A stretch of DNA of 64,000 bases from Tridacna crocea (lineage: Eukaryota > Mollusca > Bivalvia > Cardiida > Cardiidae). The notes under the pieces are model-generated. The model was not told the DNA's origin. It saw only the letters and a program-made list of their open reading frames with translations, and did no database searches. A program made the translations under genes and the position numbers. Within the stretch, counting starts at the first letter, position 1. Every line of letters starts with the position of its first letter. Shown here in pieces: positions 4,934 through 60,691 of this stretch. The stretch lies in assembly GCA_943736015.1 (NCBI GenBank), contig OX031063.1, positions 20,877,501 to 20,941,500 of the forward strand, given 5' to 3'.

Positions 4934-5162
4934 TTAACTCTTTACCAAACAACAAAATTTTAGACTGGTCCAAATTGAAAGCTTTTGCAGACGACAAATT
5001 GATTGTGACTTCAATGATGAAATTTGTCCGTGACAGGGTAGAAAACATTGTTGGAAAAGGAGAAAATGCTGGTTACCAGCATTTTCTCCTTTTCCAACGA
5101 TGTTTTCAAAAGGCCTCTACTCCAGGGTCGTAAAAAGTCGGGATTGTGTGGGAAAGGGTTAA
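4934..5162 (+). mobile_element. TTAA fold-back MITE, intact
   Basis: TTAA lies at both ends, with CTCTTTACCAAAC on the left and GTGTGGGAAAGGG on the right. The central hairpin (about 5044-5104) has apex GGTTACC. Both arms carry the same variant, GTTGGAAAAGG opposite CCTTTTCCAAC, where most copies have GTGGGAAAAGG opposite CCTTTTCCCAC. Confidence 0.88.
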
Positions 5163-14214: not shown

Positions 14215-14420
14215 TTAACCCTTTACCACACAACCCCAAGGTTTTATAACCCATATAAAGAGAGTTTTTAAAAACATTGTAGGAAAAGGAGAAAATGCTG
14301 GTAACCAGCATTTTCTCCTTTTCCAACAAAGTTTTCTACCCTTTTACACACACCCAAAAATAGTATAATGCCATCCACATTGAAATTGTCGTCTGTAAAT
14401 AAAGCTTACATTAGTTTTTA
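14215..14420 (-). mobile_element. TTAA fold-back MITE, right end eroded
   Basis: TTAACCCTTTACCACACAAC opens the element and the hairpin lies at about 14,270-14,335 with apex GGTAACC. The outer arm bases do not match (TTGTAGG opposite CCAACAA). The L flank fades after GTCGTCTGTAAATAAAGC and the closing TTAA is lost. Confidence 0.75.
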
Positions 14421-17879: not shown

Positions 17880-18095
17880 TTAACTCTTTACCAAATGACA
17901 AAATTTTAAACAGGTCCAAATTGAAAGCACTTGCAGACAACAACATAAACGAAACTCAAAAGTTGAAATTAGTTTCCATCAGGGCAGAAAACATTGTGGG
18001 AATAAGAGAAAATGCTGGTTACCAGCATTTTCTCTTATTCCCACAATGTTTTCAAAAGGCTTCTATCTCGTGGGATTTCTTTGGTAAAGGGTTAA
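17880..18095 (+). mobile_element. TTAA fold-back MITE with matched arm changes
   Basis: TTAACTCTTTACCAAATGAC to GGTAAAGGGTTAA. The hairpin (17,987-18,053) is perfect although both arms differ from most copies: GGGAATAAGAG on the left is answered by CTCTTATTCCC on the right. The R flank is shortened. Confidence 0.88.
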
Positions 18096-20343: not shown

Positions 20344-20572
20344 TTAACCCTTTACTCCATAGATACTCATTTCTACGCATTGCTTGTAGGAGCCTTTGGA
20401 AAACATTGTGGCAAAAGGTGAAATTGCTCGTGACGAGCAATTTCACCTTTTGCCACAATGTTTTCTACACCATCAAAAGGCGTCATATACACATAAGAAA
20501 TGGTTTCATCCTTGCTGTTATTTAGGGTCAATTAGAGATACCATAGAAATACCCTATGGGGTAAAGGGTTAA
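20344..20572 (-). mobile_element. TTAA fold-back MITE, distinct subfamily
   Basis: Same plan (TTAA ends, 229 bp) but different sequence. The termini are TTAACCCTTTACTCCATAG and CTATGGGGTAAAGGGTTAA. The central hairpin (about 20,395-20,468) is perfect with arms containing TGGCAAAAGGTGAAATTGC opposite GCAATTTCACCTTTTGCCA and apex CTCGTGACGAG. The outer arm AACATTGTGG is shared with the main family. Confidence 0.85.
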
Positions 20573-20873: not shown

Positions 20874-23800
20874 TTATGCTCCCCGAAGGGCGAGCATATA
20901 GTCGCCGCTTCATCTGTCCGTCCGTCCTTCCTTCCGTCCGTCCGTCCGTCCGAAGCGATTTCTCCACAACCCTTGGACCAAATTGGATGAAACTTCATAT
21001 ATGAACTCCTTTGGGTAATGCGCCGATATATATTCCCGGATTTTCAATTTGACCCCATGTCATGGAAAAAAGGGGCTTAATGCAAAATTGCAATTTTTAC
21101 CAATATCTCATTCACTTTTTGTCAGAATATCATGAAACTTCATGGTTATATTGTTTATGGAAAGTTTTAGCATGTGCCCTTGCTATTTTTAGGCCAGGGA
21201 ATCCCTCTCAAGGGATTCCCTTGCCTATAGGGATCGTAAGCTGCCTATTCAGACAAAAATGTTGGACGGTGTGTCCACTCTATATCGATGAGTCTGCCAA
21301 AACAACTAGTTTCCCAAATAAATACAGAGATTGCTTATCACACGGTGTAAATGCTTTCCTATCCTCAAAGCTTTCATCTGCAAAATGCCATGGAATTGCA
21401 AGGGTATTACGACCCTTTAATAACTGACGAGTATGTGTCTTTTATCCCGTTTTTGTCATTAACACTGACCTAATAAAGGCGTAACCTGATAAACTTAGCT
21501 TTAATCCGACAGTTGTGTATTCCTACGCGCTATATACGGTTAATAGAATATTGGCCCGTGTTATGTTTATCACTTTTTCTTATGTATATCGACTAAATCT
21601 AGGGTACTTCAGCGGAATGCTGGAGAAATCGGCCCCTGGAGAAATCGTCCCAAAACTGCTTGGCCCGTGTTATGTTTATCACTCCGGAGAAATCGTCCCC
21701 TGGAAACGATTTCTTTGGTGAAATCGTCCCCAAATAAGATTTTAGAAAAATCGACCCCAACATCAAATTTCATCCATATCGTTAATCAAGTTGTCTATAA
21801 GAATATTTTTGAAAGTTCGTTGTCTTTAGTATGTACATTATGTGTATTAGTTACCTTTATCCAAGAGTTATTTGGTAGTTTTGTCATTGTTTATACTGCC
21901 TATTTCACATTGATAGGATGTATTTCACACATTTTACACCTGTCACAAATAGATTACACCTGTGTGATTCTAAAAAAATGTCTTTGATTGACTTTGATTT
22001 GAAACCAAATAAATGCTTATAATTTTTTTCTGTAGTCGTTTGCTTGTCATTTAATGTATTTTTTTTTATCTCTCTCTCTCTACAAGTGTCATATGACATA
22101 CCTGTGACCAATACCATTTAGCAGGGGCATAAGTGTCTCTGACACACATATTTCTAGTGTTCACTAGGGCTTGTGTGCATCCGAATATTTCCGGTCCATA
22201 ACTTCTACAATTGTGGATGGATTTCAAAATAATTTGGCACAATTGACCTCCATCACGAATAAATGTGCCATTTGAAATATCTGTTGAAGTAGGTTGAAGA
22301 TCAAGGCCACATTGAAGACCAATGTTTCGTCTGAACCATAACTCCTACATTTTTGGATAGATTCCATTATAAATTAGCATAATGCATTGTTCTCCATCAT
22401 GAGTAGAAGTTCCCTTTGAAACATTTATTCAGGTCCAGGGTCTAGGTCAAGCTTGAGAGTCAAGTGTTCGCGGGCTTGACACAAGTTGTCCTTGGACAAC
22501 GATTATGAATTAGGATTAACGTCTTTTTATATTATGTAGATATAAGTATTGAAGCTCAAGTCACCGTGACTTGTCCGTAAAATAGGCAAGTAAAATAGGT
22601 AAACCGAGCCTAATCGTTTTCCCAAAACAATCCAACCTTTTCACAGTATTTTATTGAGAAAATATTCTGGCTAAAAGAGAATTTGCTTGTAACAAGCAAT
22701 TCCTCCCAATTTCCCCAAAATCTTACTTTTCAATATACACGAAGAACTACTTTGGATTTTCATCTACAACTTCCTTCAAATATGACCAGTTCGAAATTTC
22801 GTCGACTTGTGGAAGGTAGAGACAACATGACCAACTGCCATATCACTCCAATCTTTATTATTCATTACATTTTACATTGATATCTATCTTACATGTATTT
22901 TCATTGAAATCAATAAAAATAAATATGTTCTTGCGTCATAAATGTAAAAAGTAACGTCATTCAGGACTACAAGACATCACCTGTCTCAGAAAATTTAGAT
23001 AATCAAAGTTGGTATTGCACCGATTAAATAGTTCAATTTTGACTTGGGATTGTTTACAAGCACGACAAATTACTAAGTATTCTAAGCCATTATCAAGCAC
23101 CCCATAACTGTGAGCACATGCTTAGCTCTGGCTTAATTAGTTTCTGGCTGGTGCTTTCTAGTATCCGTTCAAAATTTCCTGTTAAAACCAAGAATTCCAG
23201 GGGCTTAGTGGAATCCGCTTGTATCCCTGTCCGTCTACCTGTTTGTATTAATTAAAATTGACCTCTTGTATTGTTTTGTATCCTCAATTTCCTGGCTTTC
23301 AGTACTATCAGTACTTTGATTAATCTGGGTATTTAATAAGTTGACGTTCTGTCATGGAAAAAGGGGGCTTCTTGCAAAATTCCAATTTTTACAAATATTT
23401 CATTCAGTTTGGGTCAAAATTTCATTAAACTTCCTGGTTATATTGTTTTTGTAAAGTTTCTTTATCTATGTGTTTTTCAATTTGACCCTCTGTCGTGGAA
23501 AAAGGGGATTTCTTGTAAAATGAAAAAGGGGCCCTAATGCAAAATTGCAATTTTTACTAATATCTTGTTCAGTTTTTGTCAACATGTCATGGTTATAAAA
23601 AAAAATGTGCGTTTTGTTTTTGCAATCTATGAATTATTAATGCGCAAATATGTCTTTCCTGGTTTCTCAAATTAAGGCTGCATCATGGAAAAAGGGGACT
23701 TCATGGAAAAAATTGTTTTTCACTAGGTTCTCCTCTATCAGTGTTCAAAACTTTGTGAAATTTCAAATCTGAACTTGTTGGAACGTTGCCCAGGTACCTC

Positions 23801-25179: not shown

Positions 25180-27470
25180 TATTTTTAGGCCAGGGAATCC
25201 CTCTCAAGGGATTCCCTTGCCTATAGGGATCGTAAGCTGTCTATTCAGACAAAAATGTTGGTTGGTGTGTCCACTCTATATCGCTGAGTCTGCCAAAACA
25301 ACTAGTATCCCAAGTATATACAGAGATTGCTTATCACACGGTGTGAATGCTTTCCTTTCCTCAAAGCTTTCATCTGCAAAACGCCATGGAATTGCAAGGG
25401 TATTACAATCCTTTAATAACTGACGAGTGTGTGTTTTTTATCCGGTTTTTGTCATTAACACTGACCTAATAAAGGCGTAACCTAATGAACTTAGTTTATC
25501 CGGCAGTTGTGTATTCCTACACGTTATATACGGTTAATATCTATAACGCTCTCTCTTGCACTCCGGATCATTCATATTCAGGTATGGTGAGATTAACGAA
25601 CGACGACTCTGCTCGGAGTTTGTCTATATAACGTTGTGTTGACATTTGAACATGTGTGTCACAAAACGCGTCTCCACTAAAATGTGATTGTAAATAAAGC
25701 AAACTACGAATAGAATATTGGCCCGTGTTATGTTTATCACTTTTTCTTATGTATATAGACTAAATAGGGTACTTCAGCAGAATGCTGGAGAAATCGGTCC
25801 CTGGAGAAATCGTCCCCAAACTGGTTGGCCCGTGTTATGTTTATCACTCCGGACAAATTGTCCCTTGGAGACGATTTCTTTGGTGAAATCGTCCCCAAAT
25901 AAAATTTTAGAAAAATTGACCCCAACATCAAATTTCATCCATATCGTTAATCAAGTTGTCTATAACAATATTTTTGAAATTTCCTTGTCTTTAGTATGTA
26001 CATTATATGTATTAGATACCTTTATCCAAGAGTTATTTGGTAGTTTTGTCATTGTTTATACTGCCTATTTCACACTGATAGGATGTATTTCACACCTTTT
26101 ACACCTGTCACAAAAAGATTACACCTGTGTGATTCTTAAAAATGTCTTTGATTTGAAACCAAATAAATGCTTATAATTTTTTTCTGTAGTCGTTCGCTTG
26201 TCATTTAATGTATATTTTTTTTTTCTCTCTCTCTCTACTAGTGTCATATGACATACCTGTGACCAATACCATTTAGCAGGGGCATCTGTGTCTCTGACAC
26301 ACATATTTCTAGTGTGCACTAGGGCTTGTGTGCATCCGAATATTTCGGGTCCATAACTTCTACAATTGTGGATGGATTTCAAAATAATTTGGCACAATTG
26401 ACCTCCATCACGGTTAGATGTGCCATTTGAAACATCTGTTCAAGTAGGTTCAAGATCAAGGCCCCATTGAAGGCCAATTTTTCGTCCAAACCATAACTCC
26501 TACATTTTTGGATAGATTCCGATATAAATTAGCATAATGCATTGTTCTCCATCATGAGTAGAAGTTCCCTTTGAAACATTTATTCAGGTCCAGGGTCTAG
26601 GTCAAGGTTGAGAGTCAAGTGTTTGCGGGCTTGACACAAGTTGTCCATGGACAACGATTATGAATTAGGATTAACAACTTTTTATATTATGTAGATATAA
26701 GTATCGAAGCTCAAGTCACTGTGACTTGTCCGTAAAATAGGCAAGTAAAATAGGAAAACCGAGCCTAATCGTTTTCCCAAAACAATCCAACCTTTTCACA
26801 GTATTTTATTGAGAAAATATTTTGGCTAAAAGAGAATTCGCTTGTAACAAGCAATTTCTCCCAATTTCCCCAAAATTTTACTTTTCAATATACACGAAGA
26901 ACTACTTTGGATTTTTATCTACAACTTCCTTCAAATATGACCAGTTCAAAATTTCGTCGACTTGTGGAAGGTAGAGACAACATGACATATCACTCCAATC
27001 TTTATTGTTCGTTACATTTTACCTTGATATCTATCTTACATGTATTTTCATTGAAATCAATAAAAATAAATATGTTCTTGCGTCATAAATGTAAAAAATA
27101 ACATCATTCAGGACTACAAGACATCACATGTCTCAGAAAATTTAGATAATCAAAGTTGGTATTGCACCGATTGAATACGGTTCAATTTTGACTTGGGATT
27201 GTTTACAAGCACGACAAATTACTAAGTATTCTAAGCCATTATCAAGCACCCTATAACTGTGAGCACATGCCTAGCTCTGGCTTAATTAGTTTCTGGCTGG
27301 TGCTTTCTAGTATCAGTTCAAAATTTCATGATAAAACCAAGAATTCCAGGGGCTTAGTGGAATCCGCTTGTATCCCTGTCCGTCTACCTGTTTGTATTAA
27401 TTAAAATTGACCTCATGTGTTGTTTCGTATCCTCAATTTCCTGGCTTTCAGTACTATCAGTACTTTGATT
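25180..27470 (+). mobile_element. 2.3-kb repeat, copy 2
   Basis: Direct-orientation partner of 21,184-23,321, with the same boundaries (TATTTTTAGGCCAGGG to CAGTACTTTGATT). It differs mainly by an extra segment of about 170 bp at 25,539-25,712 that copy 1 lacks. The left flank (TTTGAATG) and right flank (TTTAAATATGG) are unrelated to those of copy 1, so the ends are true element ends. Confidence 0.75.
25539..25712 (+). mobile_element. LTR-like insertion present only in copy 2
   Basis: Copy 1 reads GGTTAATAGAATATTGG straight through. Copy 2 has about 170 bp between GGTTAAT and AGAATATTGG. The insert contains TATATAA (near 25,627) and AAATAAAG (near 25,692), like promoter and polyadenylation signals of a short solo LTR. 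Part of it (GATTAACGAACGACGACTCTG) resembles 51,090-51,111. The target duplication is unclear. Confidence 0.45.
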
Positions 27471-36800: not shown

Positions 36801-39800
36801 TGTTGAAAATTTTACATAATTTATGTAGTTGGTTGAATTTGTGAATGCCAGCCCTATAAACCTATTACCAGAGTATGAGTATTGTCCAGAGTGAAGCATT
36901 TGGAGATGTCAACTATAATGATAGGTGTCCCTCTTTAACTCTTCACCAAATGACAATTTTAGACTGATCCAATTTGAAAGCATTTACAGGCGGCAAAATT
37001 AATGTAGCTCAAAAATTGAAATATGTTTTGTGAAGGGTGGAAAACAATGTTGCAAAAGGATAAAATGCTGGTTACCAGCATTTTCTCTTGGTCCAACAAT
37101 GTTTTCAAAAGGCTTCTTTCTGTGAAAACCCAGGATTGTTTGGTACAGAGTTAATACTTTACCAAACAATCCCTGGTTTTTACGACCCTCCGATAGAAGC
37201 CTTTTGAAAACATTGTTGGAAAAGGAGAAAATGCTGGTAACAAGCATTTTCTCCTTTTCCAACAAAGTTTTCTATCCGGCTGGAAACAAATTTCTATTTT
37301 TGAGTTACGTTTATTTTGTCGTCTGCAAGAGCTTTCAATTTTTAGACTAGTCTAAAATTTTGTCGTTTGGTAAAGGGTTAACCCAAAACAGTTTCAACAG
37401 AAGGCTTTGTGTACATCAAAAACCAAGACTGTTATGTAAATGGTCAATTCATCATCATGCTGATGTGAATGATAAGGTTGTATGGGAAGGAGCAACTGCT
37501 TCCTGTATTCACAGTGTGTTTTAAACAGTGCAGAAAAGTGTTTTTCTTTCAATGATTTCTGTCTCGTAACACTTTAACATAGTGTTATGTTCGTAAAAAT
37601 GTCAACCAAATCATTCAGTTTTGTTGAGTTATAAGAAAAGCATATTTTGCTACTAGCCACAGACTTTTATCTTTCATTGCAGTTTGGTACAACGCCTCTT
37701 ATTTGGGCCTGTCGGAAAGGTCACCTGGAAATTGTACAGGAACTGTTAGAGAATGGGGCTTATGTTGATAACACTGGGATGGTAAGTTGAACAGAATCAT
37801 TCATGAAATTTATTTCATCTCTATAGTTAAGAGTTTTGTATTTTATATCACTTTCTGGACTTTTTACAATCGTGAATGCACTATAATAGCTTCAACTCTT
37901 TACCACACAATAACGATGTTTGATGACCCTGTGATAGAAGCCTTTAAAAAACATTGTGGGAAAAGGAGAGTAAATAGGCCTCACATAAAATACCGCAGGT
38001 GCATTTATGAATGTTTTTTGCATCATCTGATCTATATTCAGTTGTGAAATATTGTTATGTGATAAAAAGAATCTGACATTTGTAGGCTTTTGAGATAAAA
38101 TTTTATTAAACTTGTCAAGGAAAATGTTATTAAGCTTGCCAAAGGCTCACTTAATAACATTTCCCTAGACTTGTTTAAAAAAATCTTATCTCAATAGCCA
38201 ACTCATGTCAGATCCTATATATCTCAATAGCCAACTCATGTCAGATCCTATATATCTCTTTACTTAACAATCCTGAGTTTTAACTACCCTGCTTAAGGAA
38301 TTATATAGAAAACATCGAAAATGGAGAAGAAAGTGCTGGTAGGCAGTGTTTTCGTCTTAATCACAGAAGTGCAGTGCACAAGAACCATAACTCTTCAATG
38401 CATAATTTAAGAGTTACTGCCTCTTCTTATTCACAAAGTCTTCTCTCTTTGTAGACACATCTAAGCTTTTGATGCACATGTAGTATTTTGTGTGCAAATG
38501 CTATCAGTTTGGACAAGTCTTAAAGTGTTGTCTGCAAATACCATCAATTTTAACGTTTTTATGCATCCCTTTTCACTGATACGTTGAATGTATTTCAAGG
38601 TCCTGATCACATACAGATCATGAAGATTGTACAGTAAAAATTTTCCTTTTCAGGACTCACTAACTGCTCTGCTAGTTGCTACCAAAGGAGGATATACAGA
38701 GGTGGTACAAGCTTTACTGGAACATGACCCAAATGTAAATGCTGTAGATAAGGTAAGTTCTCATTTTAACCCTTTACTGTTGGATCCTGACTTTCATGAA
38801 CCCTGACTTTTAAGAACCCCAAAAAAGAAAGCATTTGAAAGTATTGTGGGAAAAGGAGAAAATGCTGGTAAATCTAGTTGGTAATCCCGGGTCTCAGGTT
38901 GTGACGTCCAACTGTAAAACGTGGAGTATCACTGGTCCAAGATGACTGAGTAAAAAGTTGGGCGCGAAATGTAACAGGTGGTGAAAAATATATTGCGGCT
39001 TGACCGGGACACGAACCCAGGGCCTCAGGAATACCGTGCCTGCACTCTAACCAACTGAGCTACCAAATCACGTGTCGATATGGCCGCACGATATATCACC
39101 AAATACCTGTACCCAACTACATTATACCTTAACATCTATCTGTGGAATAGACCAATATACTAATAACAGCATTTTCTCCTATTCCTAAAATGTTTTCTAC
39201 CCTTCCAAAAACAAATGCTTCATGCATTTTTTTTGTCAACAATTGTGCTTATATTTTCTTCTTTGTCATATTTCAGGATGGTTTCACAGGCTTAACGATA
39301 GCTGCTAAAGAAGGTTACGAGGACATAGTGCAGGATTTACTGGCAAAAGATGCCTATGTGAACATTGCAGACAGGGTAACTTCTTGTTTTCTTTTTTTTT
39401 TTTTTTTTTTAAGCCATTACCACACAATCCCTACTTTTGATGCCCCGGAGAAAGAAGCCGTTTAGAAAACATTGTGGAAAAAGAAGAAAATGCTGGTAAG
39501 TAGCATTTTCTCCTTTTCCCACAATGTTCTTTACCCTGCACATAACAAATTTCAAATTTTCAGTCACTTTTATTCTGTTGTCTGCAAATGCTTTCGATTT
39601 GGACAAGCCTAAAATACTGTTATTTGGTAATGAGTTAAACATTATTTTTTATATAACTATTTGCCTACATTACAGACATGTTTGTATTTTTCTTACTTAA
39701 ATTTTGTCTCAAGCATAACTTGAAAAGTACATGAGATATAAACATGAAACTTCAAAGGTGGATAAATCTCATCAAGGAGAAGTGCAGTGCACCAAAATCA

Positions 39801-42800
39801 CAACTCTTGATTGCATAATTTAGGATTTATTGCCCTTTGTTGTTTTTCATACTTAAATTTTGTCAAGAGCATAACTTTGAAATACACAAGATATAAACTT
39901 GAAACCTCACAGGTTGATAGATGATATAACTGCAATGTACAAGAATCATAACTTTCAGTACCATAATTTAGGAGTTATTGGTCTTTCCTATTTTTTATGC
40001 TGCAATTTTGTCCAGAACATTATATATTAAAAAAAGAATATAAAAAGTATCATAGCCTTTAGAGGTAGGCAGATTTTATTGAGAAGTGCAACACCATGAT
40101 TTAGGAGTTATGACCCTTTGATAATTTTGAGTCCCAAGGTTTCTTTGGAGTATAACTCTATTAAAACCCATTACCACACAATCCCTACTTTTGACGCCCC
40201 TGAGAAAGAAGCCTTTTGAAAACACTGTGGGAAAAGGAGAAAATGGTGGTAACCAGCATTTTCTCCTTTTCCCACAGTGTTTTCTACCCCTCCCAGAACA
40301 AATTTCAATTTTTCAGTCACCTTCATTTTGTCATCTGCAAATGCTTTGAATTTGGACCAGTCTTAAATTTTCTTGTGTGGTAAAGAGTTAACTTCAAAGC
40401 TGGATATACCGTAACTATGTCTCTGAGGAGGACTGCAGTACGCAAGAATGATAACTCTTATATCCATATTTTTTTTTTATTTATTGCTTTGTTGTTTTTC
40501 AGGTATTTTTTCTGTCTGATTTCGTATGTTTTACTTCAACAGCTTTATAAGAAAAGTGAACCTTTTTGAAATATTTTATTTTACTTTGTATTCAGCATTG
40601 CCAGAAACTATTTCTTAAATCTAGCTATTAAACTTTTAAAGCAACCTACAAGAAGACACATATTTTCCTTTGAGTAAGCATATGGTGGGAGAATGGCCAT
40701 GTCAGCATGGCTGTCAGTCTTCTTAGAGTCATTGAAACACATGATTGTTGAGTATAAACAAATATTATTTAAAATTATGTTACTTTTATAGGCAGGTGAT
40801 ACAATTCTTATCCATGCTGTGAAAGGAGGTTACACCAACATCGTAAGAGCACTTCTAAATAGATATGCTGATGTGGATGTGGAAGGTTCTGTAAGTATAT
40901 TTGTATGCTAGACTTTCCCTGAAACAACATACAATCCCTGTAGTGGTATTGGCAAAGATAGAGACATATGTATATAAATAGGAAATAACCAGACCAAATG
41001 TATTTTTGTTCACTATAAAATAAATGATAATTCGATTATTTTCAAACTCAGTCTACATAATGACTCTGACAGTGCTGACTTCAAAACCTGTTAAATTCTT
41101 TACTAAAAGACAAAAAAACTAGACTTGTCCAAATTGAAAGTAGTTGTAGTAGACGTTTTAAGAGTGGCTCTACGGATGGAGCTTGTCTTTAATGGGGTAG
41201 AAAACATTTTAGGAAAGGGAGAAAATGCTGTTACCAGCATTTTCTCCTTTTTTCAAAATGGTTTCAAATCATGACTCTCTCCTCAGTATTGTTAAATCTT
41301 GGGATAGTGTGGTAAAGGGTTAAAGGATATTTGCTGCAAAAAATCTGACCTGCTTCAGGGAAGTAACACACTTTAATGATTGTCCTATCTGTGTATCTAT
41401 CAGATGGGTTTTTTTGAGTCGTTAATTAGGTTTTTGAGGATATGAGACACTTTAGTATTAAAAAAAAAAATTGGATTTGTATGGATTATATAATGTCCAT
41501 TTGTGAACACTCTATCAGTGCTTATCACAACTATTTTTGTTTTTTCAGAAAATGTACATCAAGATCAGACTGCACACAATGTGCAATCTGATCTAGATCT
41601 TCACTGTCTGCTTCTTTGCATCTTACGCTTGCCACATTGTCTCAGATTTTTATGCCTCCAGTGAAATGCTTTGAAAGCATTGTTTTTGCTAAAACTCATT
41701 TCACACAATATTTTTCATATCTTTGAAAAAGAGTGAAACTTTTTTTGGCACATTTCGTATCTTTAAAAAGGAAACTCTTTTGTAGACTTACATATCTATT
41801 GTATTACTTGAATTATTTACTAGTTAGTCCAAACATACAGATTTTATGGCAAAAGGTCAAATATTGAGCTGAAAAAAATTTATTGGATAATAATCTTTTG
41901 TAAACTTTTCAGGTAAAGGTATATGTTTTATTCATATCCCTAACTATCTACCCAACAATCTGGCTTGTATCCCTTTTCTAATCTCTTTACCGAAAGACAG
42001 CATTTGAGACTTACCCAAATTGAAAGCACTTGCAGACGACAAAATAAACATAACAAAAAAAATTGAAATTTGTTTCTGGTAGGGTAGAATACATAATTGG
42101 AAAAAGAGAAAATTCTGGTTACCAGCATTTTCGCTTCTTCCCACCATGTTTTCAAAAGGCTTCTATATCAAGGTTGTAAGAACCAGGGATTGTTTGGTAA
42201 AGGGTTAATGGCAGAGTGTGTTTCTGACATGAAAAAACTGTCATCACAAAACACTAACAGAACAAGAACACTGTTTTTTCCCATACAGAGTAGAGATTGA
42301 AAAAAGGAAAGGGCTACAAGCTGTTTGGTACTGAAGATTGGCTAGAGTGGAATAAGCTAACAAAGTAAAACCTGAATTATTGAAAAGTGCAACAGTATTA
42401 ACCTGTGTAGTGCTAAATGAATTTAATGTACAGTCAGTTCTCTGTCAGTTCTCTATCAGTTTTTAGCTCCTAGGGTGCCAAAAAAACCAACAAGAGTATC
42501 CTTTTTTTTTTCTAGAACATGATCCAAATAATCACATGAAAGCACAATGTATTTTTTATCTGCATGCATCTTTAATGTAAGAACCTAAAATTTATTTTCT
42601 GGTAAAGTCTTAGGAATAGTAAAAATGAGAAATAAGAGAAATTAACAAATTATTAAAGGGGTTGTTTTGGAAAGCACCTAATGCTGACCCGCCAAAGGTA
42701 AGGTTTTGATGTCCTTTTTGTGCACAAGTGTATAGATTGATAAATAGATATTTGTAGTGCATTTTTAACAATCTTTAGGGATGACGGAGGAAGCCAGATA

Positions 42801-45800: not shown

Positions 45801-48800
45801 AGTTGATGAAACTTCATGCATGTCTTCCATTGGATAGTCTGTTGATACATTTTTTTCCATATATACATGTAATGGGAAAAAGGGGGTTTTATGTATATTT
45901 CCTGTATTTGTTTTCATTCCATGAAATGCCAAGTTCTGCAAAAGGGTACTCAATCTATAATCCTATTATGGACCTCTCACAATTTTTTTGTAATGAAATG
46001 ATTTGTCATGGAACAAGGGAGCTTAATGTATAATTTCATCATGGACCAATAACAAAAAGGCCACATGTACATGCAAAACACAATACCTCTAATATGTTTG
46101 TATCAAGGTATTTTCTGGTGGGGAATATCATTTCAACAAAATTGCTTGTTTATTCTTTCTGCTTATATGCAGCAGTGGAAACAGTATTTACACAATTTCT
46201 AAACCCTGTGCCTGATGACAAAATCCAGGTTGAAAGCATTTGCAAATGACAGTTAACCCTTTACCACATGACAACATTTTTGACTTTTCCAAATTGAAAG
46301 AATTTGCAGACAACAATTTCAATGTGGCTCAATAATAGGATTTTTGTTTGATAAGATACAACCATTTTCTCTTTTTCCCTCAATGTTTTCAAAAGGCTTT
46401 TTCTTCAGGGTCACTGAAAGTCGGCATTTTGTTGTAAAAGATTAAATGTGGATCAAATTATTGGATCTGTGTTGGAAAGAAGGAAAATATTGTATCAACA
46501 GGAGTAAATTACCAACATTTTCTGGTATCATTACAACATTTTCAAAAGTATTCTTCATAAGCATGAAAAAAGGATTGTATAATAAACAGTACATTAATAG
46601 TTTGCAAGTAAAAAATTTTCTTCTTTTTTTTTTGCATTTTTCACAATCAAGCAGACTTATTTAAAGGGATATTGAATTATTATTTATTTAATGTTTGATA
46701 TAATGTCAAAAAAAAAAACTTTGCAAAGTTTGTGAGGTTTCATTTCATGTTTGTCTTTATTGCCTGGTAGTTTGTAATTAAATTTGGCTTAAGTCTGGCT
46801 TTCTTTTATAGGGGACGTTATGCAAGCTTTGGAAATCTTTTGTCATGAATTAACTTTCAGTTTCAGAATTTATGAATGACATGCACACAATTAACGATCC
46901 TTCTTTAATATTCTTGACTTGGACAAAAATTATAACTGCTTTTGGCATAGGTAACTGTTTGTTTGGTCTCATGTATAATCTCATTTAGCTATTAGGCACT
47001 TCAGCACCATCATGCCCCTCTTTTTTCCCAAAATGATGCTTCAAATATTTTCTAATTTCTTAAGCCATTACCTTACAATCCCTGCTTATGATGCCCCTTA
47101 GAAAGAGGCCTTTAGAAAACATTGTTGGAAAAGGAGAAAATGCTGGTAAACATCATTTTCTTCCGTTTCCACAATGTTTTCTACTCTTCACATAACAAAT
47201 TTCAAATTTTTAGTCACTTTTGTTTTGTCGTCTGTGAATGCTTTCGATTTGGACAAGCCTAAAATAATGTCTTTGGTAATGAGTTAATACAATTGGAAAT
47301 TTTTGTTGTACAAAAGACAAATTGCAGACTTGTCCATATTGAAAGCTTCTGGAGACAACAAGTTATATCTGAATCAGACAGTGAGAGTCTGTTTTGAAAA
47401 GACAGAAAACATCATTGGATTAGATGAAAAAGCTATTGGCCAGCATTTTCATCTTTTCCAATGATTTTTTTAACTGTTTACCCCACACTCAAAAATTTTA
47501 ATAATCCCAGGGAAGAAGGCACATCTAAACCAGCATTTTATCCGTTCCCACAATGTTTGCGACCCTGATATTGACAGCAGTCACCTTTTGACCTACAATT
47601 GTTGTCATCTGCAAATGCTTTCAATTTGGTCTGGCTGGGTAACTTGGTTAGTGTATCTGATTTGGGACTTGGTGGTTGTGGGTTTGATACCAAGTTTAGG
47701 CAAACTTTTCCTGTGGCAATTTGTTTGCCGTTCACCTCCGATGTGTCATTATTGGTTCGGGAAAGCCAGGACACAATTGTGTAGATGCAACGACAACCTT
47801 GGTATGACCTAAGCTATTAAAATGGTGGTAAACTACCGTACTATACATACAAAGTGATTTGGTTAATTCCAAAATTTTGTCATTTAGTAAAATGTTGAGA
47901 GTGTTGTGTGTGGGGTTAAGAAAGAGGGATAATCAACATTAATTTTGGTAAGTACATCTACATGTACTTAGTCATTAAGTCAGTGAAATTTATGATATGA
48001 TGCTTTGTTATTGATTTTTATTACATGACCTCCATTGTTTTCACTGAAATATATCCACCATGAATTTTCTTATCGTGTAGACGTTTGATTTCACAATTGT
48101 GTGACATCATTTTTGACACCATTTTGTACATATTTCATAGAAGCCAATGCCATCTTATAGATAGTACTGCAGGTGCATCTATAGATGGTTGTGCATCTTT
48201 CGATATATAACCTGTGAAATACCTCTATGTGATAAAAAGAATCTGACATCGGTTAGCATTTGAAATAAATTTTATGAAACTGTGCAAGAAAAAAGATGTG
48301 TTTGATAAAAATTTAAACACTTATACACTTACTCATGTCAGATTCTGTATGGGTGTAGGACAGAAGCCCACTAGGACAAAAGCCCAATAGAATGAAAGCC
48401 CACTGGGACAAAAGCCCATAAGGACAAATGTCTACTTTTGGTTATACGGTAATCATTCTAATTGAAAGATTTTGTATATACACGTATAATGCAACTTGTC
48501 CCTAGAAGAGTAGAAAACATTATGTGAAAAGCTGAAAATGCTGGTAAGCAGCATTTTCTTCTTCTCTCAAAGTGATTTCAAAAGTCCAGTATTTTCTCCT
48601 TTTCTGACAGTTTTTTCACAAGTCTTCTTTCACATGGTTGTTATAAGTATGGGAAATGTTGCAGAGAAATAAACATTGAGAAGAAAGACAGGTAATTTGA
48701 TCATTCTGATCATTAAACCCCTAATGTGTTTTTCTTACAAACATGTTAAAAAATGATTTTCTAACACTTTTTTATAGGCTCTTGTCTCCCTGTCAAAATT

Positions 48801-51800
48801 AGCAGTGGGCTATTGTCCTACAGGCTTTTGTCCTAGTGGGCTTTTGTCCGTTCCCCATTCTATACATCTTTACTGCTTTATCATTACTGTCTGCTGCTGT
48901 TGTTTCTTTTTATGCCTGTGTCTTAATATCTCTTTAGTTTATCTCTCACCAAGAAACAGTTTTTTAATAGCAGGATTTTTTTTAACTCATAACCAAAAAT
49001 CTGTTGATTTCAGGATAGGAGAACAGCATTGTATTGGGCAGTTGAGAAGAATCATACAGAAATAGTAAAGCTCCTATTGGACAATGATGCAGATATGGAA
49101 ATATGCACCAAAGATGGTGACACTCCATTAATGCGCGCTGTCAGAAATAGACATGAAATGGTTGTTCGTATGTTATTGGACAAAGGGGCTCGTGTGTCTG
49201 TTTTTGATAAGGTAAAATGCCTGTTCTAATCATTTTATGTTGAAATACATTAGGTTTTGGATAGATTCTTGTAATTCCTTTACCAAACAATTCAGTGCTT
49301 TGAAGACCCTGCAAAAAAAGGCTTTCGAAATCATTATGGTACAAAAATGCTGGTTTTATTTTCCTACAAACCTTTCTTCCCTATCTAATGCAAACCCCAT
49401 CTTCTGAGATACATTTAATTTGTTATGTGCAAATGATTTCATGTTGGACTAGTCCACAGGTACTTGGTGTGTTGCTCTTACACCCCTGGGAACATGTATA
49501 AATCATCTTTACCCTGTTTCAGACTTTGATGAAATTTCATTTATTAAACCCCATTTCTTTGAAAAGTAATGTTTTAATTACAGAAAGGTGATACTGCACT
49601 GCACATTTCTCTGAGGGGACGAAGTAAAAGGATAACTGAGTTGCTATTGAGGAATCCTCGTAACAGTCGACTATTGTACCGACCAAACAAGGCTGGAGAA
49701 ACTCCATACAGTATAGATGCATACAATCAAAAAGGAATTTTAACACAAATACATGGGCATAGTATGTGAAAAAATTCATTTGTCTCTTGTACTTAAAAAA
49801 AAATGTCAAAACAAAATGTAATTTTAACTTTTATAAATTAGACCTAAACTCTTTACCATACAACAAAATCTTTGACTTGTCAAAATTAACCCTTTACCAA
49901 ACAATCCTTGGTTTTTACGACCCTGAAATGGAAGCCTTTTGAAAACATTCTGGGACAAGGAGAAAATGCTGGTAACTAGCATTTTCCCTTTTCCCACAAT
50001 ATTTTCTACCCTGATGGAAACAAATTTCAATTTTTGAGTTACGTTTATTTTGTCGTCTGTAAGTACTTCCAATATGGACTAGTCTAAAATTTTTGTCATT
50101 TGGTATAGAGTTAAACACATTTTCAGACGACAATTTGATTGTGGCTCAAAGGGTGGAATGTAGCTTTGATAGGGTAGAAAACATTTTTTTGAAAAGGAGA
50201 AAGTGGTGGTAACTAGCATTTTCTCATAGTTCTTTCAGAAGTTTCTCCCTCAGGATCGTTTAAACTCGGGATAATTTGGTAAAGAGTTAACCCTTTACCA
50301 CACAAGAAAATTTTAGACTGGTCCAAATTGAAAGCAATTGCAGACGACAAAATAAATGTGACTAAAAAATAGAAAGTTGTTCTGGGAAGGATAGAAAACA
50401 CTATGGGAAAAGGAGAAAATGCTGGTTACCAGCATTTTCTCATTTTCCCATAGTGTTTTCAAAAGGCTTTTTTCTCAGGGGTGTCAAAAGTAGGGATTGT
50501 GTGGTAAAGAGTTAAAAGGTTTTATGATATTACTATTTTGGATGCCAGCCAGTCTGTCCATCTGCCTAATGGGGATTTTTATATTGATCTATTTGCTCCT
50601 TAAGTTTTCTTGACCAGTCAAAAAGAAAGTATCTTTAACATGCGATATAAACTCCCTATCATTTCTTGAGACTTTAGGTATAAACAGACCACACAATATG
50701 ACCAGAACTCAAAATGGCAACACAAACACCGGTGAAAGAAAGACCAATATCGAATAAAACTTAAATGTCTTTTAAAGGACCATAACTTGTTTTTTAATCT
50801 TATAAACTAAGATCCATTTGTGTGTCAAAACTGTTGTCATCATTCATGGGTGCGGCTATTTTTGTTAAAATTGGCGTAAGATTCTGATCAGTAAAGAATC
50901 TCGAAAAAAATTGTTCCATTGTATACAGGTAAATTCATCACTTTAAATGCACCTATAATGTATCCAGAATCATATTTCCTTTGTCTACTTTATAATGTTA
51001 CACATGAAACAGTTAAACAGTAACAAAACATCTTTTCCTCGGTTTGACAAGATTCTTGTCATTTAGCCCATTGCAAGAGATGTATGATGAGAGTAACGAA
51101 TGACAACTCTGCTTGGAGATTGCTCTCATAATAGTACTTTTATTTGACTGTTTCAGGACAACTGAATGCCACAGATGGTGAGAACCTGTTGGGCTATGAG
51201 ATTTATAGTAGTTCTCTTGCTGATATTCTAAGTGAGCCGTCCCTTAACACCCCTATAACTGTAGGACTGTATGCAAAATGGGGAAGTGGAAAATCTTTCC
51301 TTCTTGGGAAATTGCAAAGTAAGTATTTTTTTCATTCTTTTATCTTTGTTTTTTCTCCATGGTCAACTCTTTACCACAGGACAAAATTGTAGACTTGTCC
51401 AAATTCAAAGCATATGCAGACGACAAATCAAGGTTGGCCTTTGTGTGGGAAAAGGAGAAAATGCTGGTTACTAGCCTTTTTATGTTGTCCCTCAATGTTT
51501 TCAAAAACATTTTCCTGAGGGTGGTTAAAACTTTAAAATTGTGTGGTAAATGCTCAAAACTAAATTAGTTATTACAACATCCTGATTCGATTTCTGTTTG
51601 TTGCCTTGCTCCTCAGGCTCTGCCCTTTATCAAGGCATTATAAGGGCATAACTTAGTCCTGTGGAACCTTGGAAAAACTGGCATAGATAAGCTGTTACAG
51701 TGATATGACAGATATACTATTGAAAGCATCGTAAATGTCCACTCAAATGAATATAGCCCATTTTTTCTATCATTTGTAAAGGATGCCTTTGCTTTCATTC

Positions 51801-60462: not shown

Positions 60463-60691
60463 TTAACCTTTTACCACACAATCCCAACTTTTAAAACCCT
60501 GGTGTAAGTAGCCTTTTGAAAACATTGTGGGAAAAGGAGAAAATGCTGGTAACCAGCATTTTCTCCTTTTCCCACAATGTTTTCTTCCCTTCCTAAAACA
60601 AATTTCAGTTCACTAGTCACATTTTTTTAGTCATCTGCAAATGCTTTCAATTTGAACCAGTCTAAAATTTTGTCGTTTGGTAAAGAGTTAA
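60463..60691 (-). mobile_element. TTAA fold-back MITE, intact, intron 17
   Basis: TTAACCTTTTACCACACAAT to TTTGGTAAAGAGTTAA. Perfect hairpin at about 60,521-60,583, apex GGTAACC. Confidence 0.9.

Follow-up and report, generated by a model that had tools for sequence, protein, structure and literature searches.

Paired arm changes in the palindromic core of an abundant Tridacna crocea MITE appear largely inherited, with possible arm switching in single copies

A large part of the differences that occur in step on the two arms of an abundant palindromic repeat in the giant clam Tridacna crocea is inheritance of parental pairs, and arm changes in single copies are for the most part one-sided. At a probability of roughly 55%, we propose that selection on source elements followed by descent accounts for most in-step differences, with arm switching as a second layer in single copies. 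The starting point was a 64,000-nucleotide stretch of contig C8 (C8:20,877,501-20,941,500, here called the window), in which hairpin arms had been described as often differing identically on both sides, either through copying of one arm from the other or through selection on the structure during mobility. That interpretation, the original prediction, is partly supported by the analysis below.

RESULTS

An abundant TTAA-flanked element with a 67-bp palindromic core

On sequence features, the hairpins belong to a very abundant MITE of ~229 bp, TTAA-flanked and piggyBac-like, whose core they form. The element model has 227 positions (~229 bp from TTAA to TTAA), and model positions 55-121 form the core, a 67-bp odd-centred palindrome of 33 + 1 + 33 bases. 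A 31-bp piece of core, searched for with ≤3 mismatches, matched 32 times in the window versus 0 times in 100 shuffles, which places the palindrome far beyond chance. Both ends carry TTAA in 107 of 151 full-length copies, against a TTAA background of 0.0079 per position, and these 107 copies thus show the target-site duplication expected of a piggyBac-like MITE. Terminal inverted repeats, a second property of such elements, are also present: the 10-bp ends covary between subfamilies, with CCCATTACCA/TGGTAATGAG and CCCTTTCCCA/TGGGAAAGGG as the paired terminal variants. The ends CCCTTTACCA and CCCTTTCCCA fit the CC[C/T]T terminal motif known from coral elements (PMC2872659); CCCATTACCA is the left end seen most often, and there are also copies with CTCTTTACCA.

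Identity to the consensus was 0.91 in the core, 0.83-0.84 in the terminal repeats, and 0.80 in the other flank, so that across families the interior is conserved relative to the terminal repeats (0.91 versus 0.83-0.84), as in the coral elements called CMITEs. Family B has different flanks and ends of its own, and its core is common with that of family A except for four pairs that are changed on both arms, a difference seen in nine of the nine copies first aligned. The core of family C differs from that of A at three pairs.

In the window, 86 non-overlapping element matches occupy 15,179 bp, and 69 of them span the core; over 18 spread 10-kb regions, element coverage was 12.1%. One exact 35-bp core was found at 166,719 places in the 1.05-Gb genome (31 contigs), as an exact pattern count in which counts of repeats may be lower bounds. 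For the comparison of arms, 394 non-overlapping matches were reduced to 250 with sufficient core and flank and to 240 after removal of 10 tandem-array duplicates. A set of 193 copies, drawn from 317 matches, is a smaller sample with array duplicates included, and the test of the centre base used a stricter collapse that left 202 class A copies. Classes were assigned by rule, and of the 19 copies placed in class B, L008 6862 does not belong to family B and was dropped from the family B numbers, leaving 18.

The window also contains a 156-bp tandem array (58602-60019, 9.1 copies) that adjoins a GGCG run and is flanked by fragments of the element, a left-arm fragment at 60139-60073 (also with a AATAAGAG variant) and another at 58516-58379. 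A unit related to this array lies at 39685-40020.

Matched changes exceed independent mutation

All six copies quoted in the original prediction were recovered exactly, in place and in both arms. These copies, together with a family B element and a reference copy, are listed below, with changed pairs given by model position.

17881..18094, minus strand: family A copy with the hairpin quoted first (nhmmer to the element model, score 190.7); matched 71T and 73A, 0 other changed pairs
17987..18053, no strand assigned: 67-bp palindrome core of the 17881..18094 copy; 33/33 pairs; its 39-bp core variant has two exact occurrences in the genome
50288..50514, minus strand: family A copy, palindrome 50394-50460; matched 62C and 64A, one other changed pair
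40165..40390, plus strand: family A copy, palindrome 40218-40284; matched 62C (an inherited variant), one other changed pair
4935..5161, minus strand: family A copy, palindrome 5041-5107; matched 66T, one other changed pair
37153..37380, plus strand: family A copy, palindrome 37206-37272; matched 66T, two other changed pairs
47311..47476, minus strand: family A copy, old and diverged; of its changed pairs, five are matched and eight are not
20344..20572, plus strand: family B element, palindrome 20399-20465, ends approximate (from the family B consensus length); four family-fixed matched pairs
60464..60690, plus strand: family A copy with perfect consensus palindrome 60518-60584, matched to the element model and taken as reference

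The double-matched core at 17,987 has its second exact place on contig C5, and 11 further places differ from it by one mismatch. Coincidental copies of this kind are expected at ~0.3-0.4 (an estimate that uses 579 copies and an A-to-T rate of 2.4%); the variant is unusual, yet not wildly so for a family of such size. As for arrangement, the 37153-37380 copy lies head to head with a copy at 36936-37153, both carrying matched 66T, and in another head-to-head pair of elements (L026 6186-6633) both copies have a T centre.

The description of arms as "often" changing identically calls for a denominator. Of 50 window copies that were scored, 19 have at least one matched pair, and the changed pairs number 213 one-sided, 30 matched, and 18 unmatched double. 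That matched changes outnumber those expected from independent mutation was confirmed. Among 193 copies, there were 157 matched doubles versus 38 expected from column products, and 60 unmatched doubles versus 42. In register, the ratio of observed to expected double changes was 2.71; with the partner shifted by 1-4 bases, it was 0.98-1.49. Pure chance is ruled out by this shifted-register control together with the 157 matched doubles versus 38.

Differences fixed between families are paired and inherited

Clustering by flank produced seven subfamilies of at least four copies, which together hold 114 of the 240 copies. Six of the seven subfamily consensus cores pair at 33/33, and that of B pairs at 32 with one ambiguous pair. 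Differences from A that are fixed number four in B and three in C; all seven are matched, and fixed one-sided differences number 0. It is these fixed differences between families, in this sample, that are all matched. The copy at 20,399, with its four changes, was considered as a case of correction within a single insertion and rejected, because the four pairs are fixed in family B.

Inheritance is also visible within family A. Matched 62C, present in two of the six quoted copies, clusters by flank, with the same variant in 45 of 80 neighbour slots versus 5.9 expected. Overall, clustering by flank was found for 1 of 10 matched variants tested; carriers of matched 64A, 66T, 73A, and 74A had 0 or 1 same-variant neighbours, but with 0.3-2.6 expected by chance this comparison has limited power. 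One-sided class A variants clustered by flank (p < 0.01) in 2 of 85 cases tested, A61>C (5 carriers) and T115>A (13 carriers). Pair 67/109 segregates in family B, where nine of 18 copies have G-T, one has C-T, and eight have G-C, with some tendency of like to lie near like. Because one-sided variants (67/109, 61, and 115) are inherited, pairing in sources is not absolute. Unpaired states are likewise found in two small subfamilies, at 86/90 in 3 of 12 copies and at 60/116 in 2 of 5.

Among the sampled family A subfamilies, sequence as well as pairing has been kept. In pairwise comparisons, five A subfamilies show 0/67 differences in the core and are 4-23% different in the flanks, a contrast with p values of 1.5e-3 to 6e-6 for the three subfamily pairs tested (for example, 0/67 versus 25/114, p 6e-6). 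Core divergence is 0.47-0.74 of flank divergence already within subfamilies, and given this ratio, composition or alignment may contribute part of the contrast. Copying between arms preserves pairing, not sequence, so the identity of A subfamily cores points to selection on source elements. Between the two causes that had been offered for the in-step changes, selection, placed in the sources, is thus the better fit to the main signal, since the core is conserved in sequence beyond pairing alone, and arm-to-arm copying becomes a weaker addition. The constraint could act on sequence rather than on pairing, and whole-core exchange between families would be another way to conserve the core.

Single copies change mostly one arm at a time

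When each of 240 copies was compared to the local consensus of its flank relatives, 922 one-sided, 57 unmatched double, and 77 matched changes were counted, or ~12 one-sided changes to each matched one (922 versus 77). The apparent excess over this local consensus (77 versus 20.3) was rejected as a count of single-insertion events by a burden-matched null of ~46 and by the inherited 62C. In family B, with pair 67/109 left aside, the 18 copies (3-11% flank divergence) carry 22 one-sided changes, one matched, and one unmatched.

Duplicates of the same insertion were recognised by their outer flanks. Five comparisons of such duplicates (L009 array versus L011 array; the L023 pair; L015 3132 versus L029 4322; w26777 versus w22622; and L026 1618 versus L015 1399) gave 28 one-sided changes, one unmatched, and 0 matched, where in some comparisons the outer flanks may be part of a larger repeat. 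The L007 pair shows no change and does not alter this tally. The tally also omits two partial rows with L029 4100, which have 3 and 4 one-sided changes, 3 unmatched in either row, and 0 matched. For example, the window copies at 26777-26971 and 22622-22816 belong to a duplicated segment whose outer flanks are 96% and 91% identical, and represent the same insertion; their cores have four one-sided differences and 0 matched. L009 and L011 are tandem arrays with units of ~1.64 and 1.85 kb; all their units include the same element copy, which is old and T-centred.

A burden-matched permutation of class A copies, excluding pair 62, yielded 65 matched changes versus 39.7 (sd 5.2) and 54 unmatched versus 48.4, and shifted registers under the same permutation showed no excess. 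For copies with a relative within 0.2, the corresponding null gave 22 matched versus 10.5 and 15 unmatched versus 9.4. This matched excess depends on how often-varying sites are handled. Excluding eight often-varying pairs (62, 64, 66, 68, 74, 75, 80, and 85) left no private matched excess (26 versus 21.8 over four bins), and matched types found in a single copy numbered 17 versus 11.7 (sd 3). By these two results, it is a few fast sites that carry the within-insertion layer.

The original prediction had named the outcome that would tell against it, namely, pairs shared by descent with no excess within single insertions. Descent was found for 62C and for the B and C pairs, and 0 of 29 changed pairs were matched in same-insertion duplicates, but some excess is left, as are scattered changes at the centre base.

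Genome-wide counts at pair 73/103

The copy at 17,987 is changed at two pairs, and one of them, 73/103, was counted across the genome, giving 166,719 perfect places, 6,514 changed on the left only, 5,542 on the right only, and 1,065 on both sides. Independence predicts 217 doubles rather than 1,065, which indicates that the burden of change varies among copies. The doubles include 579 matched A/T places and 125 with left A and an unmatched right base. Given left A, the ratio of matched to unmatched is therefore 4.6, compared to ~1.4 to 2.3 predicted from right-arm spectra in the sample (young copies, taken over all C sites, have 60 T and 42 others, giving 1.4; site 103 has 14 and 6, giving 2.3). 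Expressed as copies, the excess is estimated at 223-250, or ~3% of one-arm changes, and at ~290-400, or ~4-5%, with the 125 unmatched places as baseline. Small-lineage descent could also produce this excess.

The centre base changes preferentially to its complement

Inversion of a perfect palindrome in place alters a single base, the centre. In 202 class A copies, this base is A in 170, T in 22, G in 7, and C in 3. Change from A to T at the centre (10.9%, 22/202) exceeds that at other A sites (2.4%, 97/4,027; p 2e-8), and neither A>G (3.5 versus 2.6%) nor A>C (1.5 versus 1.3%) is clearly raised in class A. T-centre copies showed no clustering by flank (13 of 110 neighbour slots versus 11.3 expected, p 0.35), and 15 of the 22 have no T in their three nearest flank relatives. 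Counted as private changes, the centre (15) stands little above the next sites, 62 (14) and 113 (11). In family B the centre is G in 14 copies and C in 4, and the nearest flank relative of every C copy has G. The other G/C arm letters of family B show one complement change in 432, a rate at which the probability of at least four in 18 is 9e-8 (5e-5 with a broader background). A matched pair is present in 11/22 T-centre copies versus 40/178 others (p 0.009; stratified, 0.02), with p 0.11 when matched changes are set against other changes alone.

Across the genome, one exact right half of the core occurs with centre A at 41,219 places, T at 14,385, and G at 1,025. Among the places listed, the first 3.74 Mb of contig C1 holds 100 right halves with A, 11 with T, and 5 with G, and the first 34.6 Mb holds 100 with T and 36 with G. 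Most T-centre right halves must be concentrated outside that part of C1, and their sparseness on it suggests that a single clustered lineage may account for some of the T signal. Inversion of the loop, here the centre, is a mark of template switching at quasipalindromes, and the changes seen in A and B are complement-specific and scattered, within a loop of one base only. In any one copy, a point change at the centre is indistinguishable from an inversion.

DISCUSSION

Inheritance from core-keeping sources as the main cause, with arm switching as a weaker addition, is the likeliest explanation of these data. A well-kept core would allow better amplification, possibly via a transposase, a host factor, or a mobility hairpin that uses the core. 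Source elements would keep their cores, fixed changes would be paired and passed to daughters, and resident copies would then decay one arm at a time. In the second layer, the palindrome may switch arms during DNA synthesis in single copies, by template switching or inversion, and such events would turn the centre base into its complement and occasionally copy a change from arm to arm, with an excess of ~3-5% of one-arm changes. A more specific form of this explanation, in which the core is under selection and resident copies switch arms in place at about the point-mutation rate per site or several times that rate, is tentative, and we rate it at somewhat less than an even chance. Under it, the footprints would be the centre flips of family B, seen in 4 of its 18 copies (3-11% flank divergence), and the matched excess of ~3-5% of one-arm changes.

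Template switching at each resident copy could instead be the main cause, with one arm repeatedly corrected from the other and selection unneeded. Complement changes at the centre in two families are what this would produce, as are the richer matched pairs of T-centre copies (11/22 versus 40/178; p 0.11 for matched versus other changes), the excess of matched over unmatched changes at 73/103, and the lack of clustering among matched carriers at 64, 66, 73, and 74. Such correction would not conserve sequence, however, yet A subfamily cores are identical while their flanks diverge. Nor does it agree with the ~12-to-1 predominance of one-sided over matched changes (922 versus 77), with the same-insertion duplicates, whose 29 changed pairs include 0 matched, or with family B, which has 1 matched versus 22 one-sided changes and in which an unpaired 67/109 persists in half of the copies. 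We regard it as an unlikely main cause. A further alternative is descent only: every matched pair would have been inherited from small subfamilies outside the sample, under selection or not, with nothing happening in single copies. In its favour, the 62C, B, and C variants are inherited, as are some one-sided ones, the 17,987 variant has a second exact place on another chromosome and 11 one-mismatch places, duplicates of the same insertion are without matched change, and no excess appears outside fast sites. Matched carriers at 64, 66, 73, and 74 that do not cluster by flank (a comparison of limited power) and centre changes that are complement-specific and scattered argue against descent as the entire account, and we judge this to be rather improbable.

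Interlocus gene conversion, in which copies in either orientation swap segments of core, spread paired variants, and flip the centre, would account for cores common to families with different flanks, for the scatter of some matched variants, and for the centre changes. It supplies no origin for the first matched pair, however, and by itself leaves the all-matched fixed differences between families unexplained, which makes it a very remote candidate beside the combination of source selection, descent, and a weaker layer of arm switching.

Compensatory change is usually taken to prove selection on structure, and template switching is a mutational cause that has been put forward for it. With more than 166,000 exact 35-bp cores, most of them presumably neutral once inserted, changes fixed in sources and changes in single copies become measurable apart, and the centre base serves as a built-in marker of inversion in such a measurement. 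If arm switching in place is true, a family of 10^5 copies would be a natural counter of template switching in the germ line.

Palindromes of comparable size, likewise odd-centred and near-perfect, are present in at least four other interspersed families of the genome, which a search found at 48, 7, 14, and 6 loci (in L003, L004, L006, L008, L012, L014, L017, L021, L024, L027, and others). The arms in some of them seem to vary in matched ways, as an uncounted impression, and one of these palindromes is reminiscent of sequences often seen in bivalve transcripts. These observations raise the question of why near-perfect odd-centred palindromes should be present in more than one repeat family of the same genome.

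Relation to known elements and hairpins

In literature on mollusc or bivalve MITEs, piggyBac MITEs, hairpin template switching, loop inversion, and compensatory change in MITEs, the element was not found among the matches listed. The closest parallel is with the CMITEs of Acropora corals, which are described as short, with ends of the CCCTTT type, TTAA duplications, and a link to piggyBac-like transposons (PMC2872659). They are ~100 bp long with a 75-base internal region, their interior is more conserved between families than their terminal repeats, and they form tandem arrays (PMC2872659). TTAA, the conserved interior, and tandem arrays are common to both, and some of the clam element's ends are of the coral type (PMC2872659). 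The likeness is one of description, and the portions of that account available to us make no mention of a palindrome, hairpin, or secondary structure in CMITEs, in contrast to the 67-bp palindrome with paired between-family changes found here (PMC2872659).

Bacterial REPINs offer a parallel in structure. They are abundant and non-autonomous, consist of inverted halves with predicted hairpins, and are more conserved as doublets than as singlets (PMC3116915). The clam element shares with them its abundance, its inverted halves, and its predicted hairpins, but REPINs are tied to REP-associated tyrosine transposases, and TTAA ends are absent from the part of their description at hand (PMC3116915).

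For the mutational process, the relevant comparison is with hairpins maintained by template switching in rRNA and microRNA genes, where the reported footprints are multiple compensatory changes and loop inversion (PMC8794818). The co-occurrence of compensatory change with loop inversion is given there, in the portion consulted, as the strongest support for template switching (PMC8794818). The centre flips and matched pairs of the clam element are footprints of the same type; the difference is that here they occur across ~10^5 copies of a mobile element, in which much of the pairing is inherited and the putative switching layer is weak (PMC8794818).
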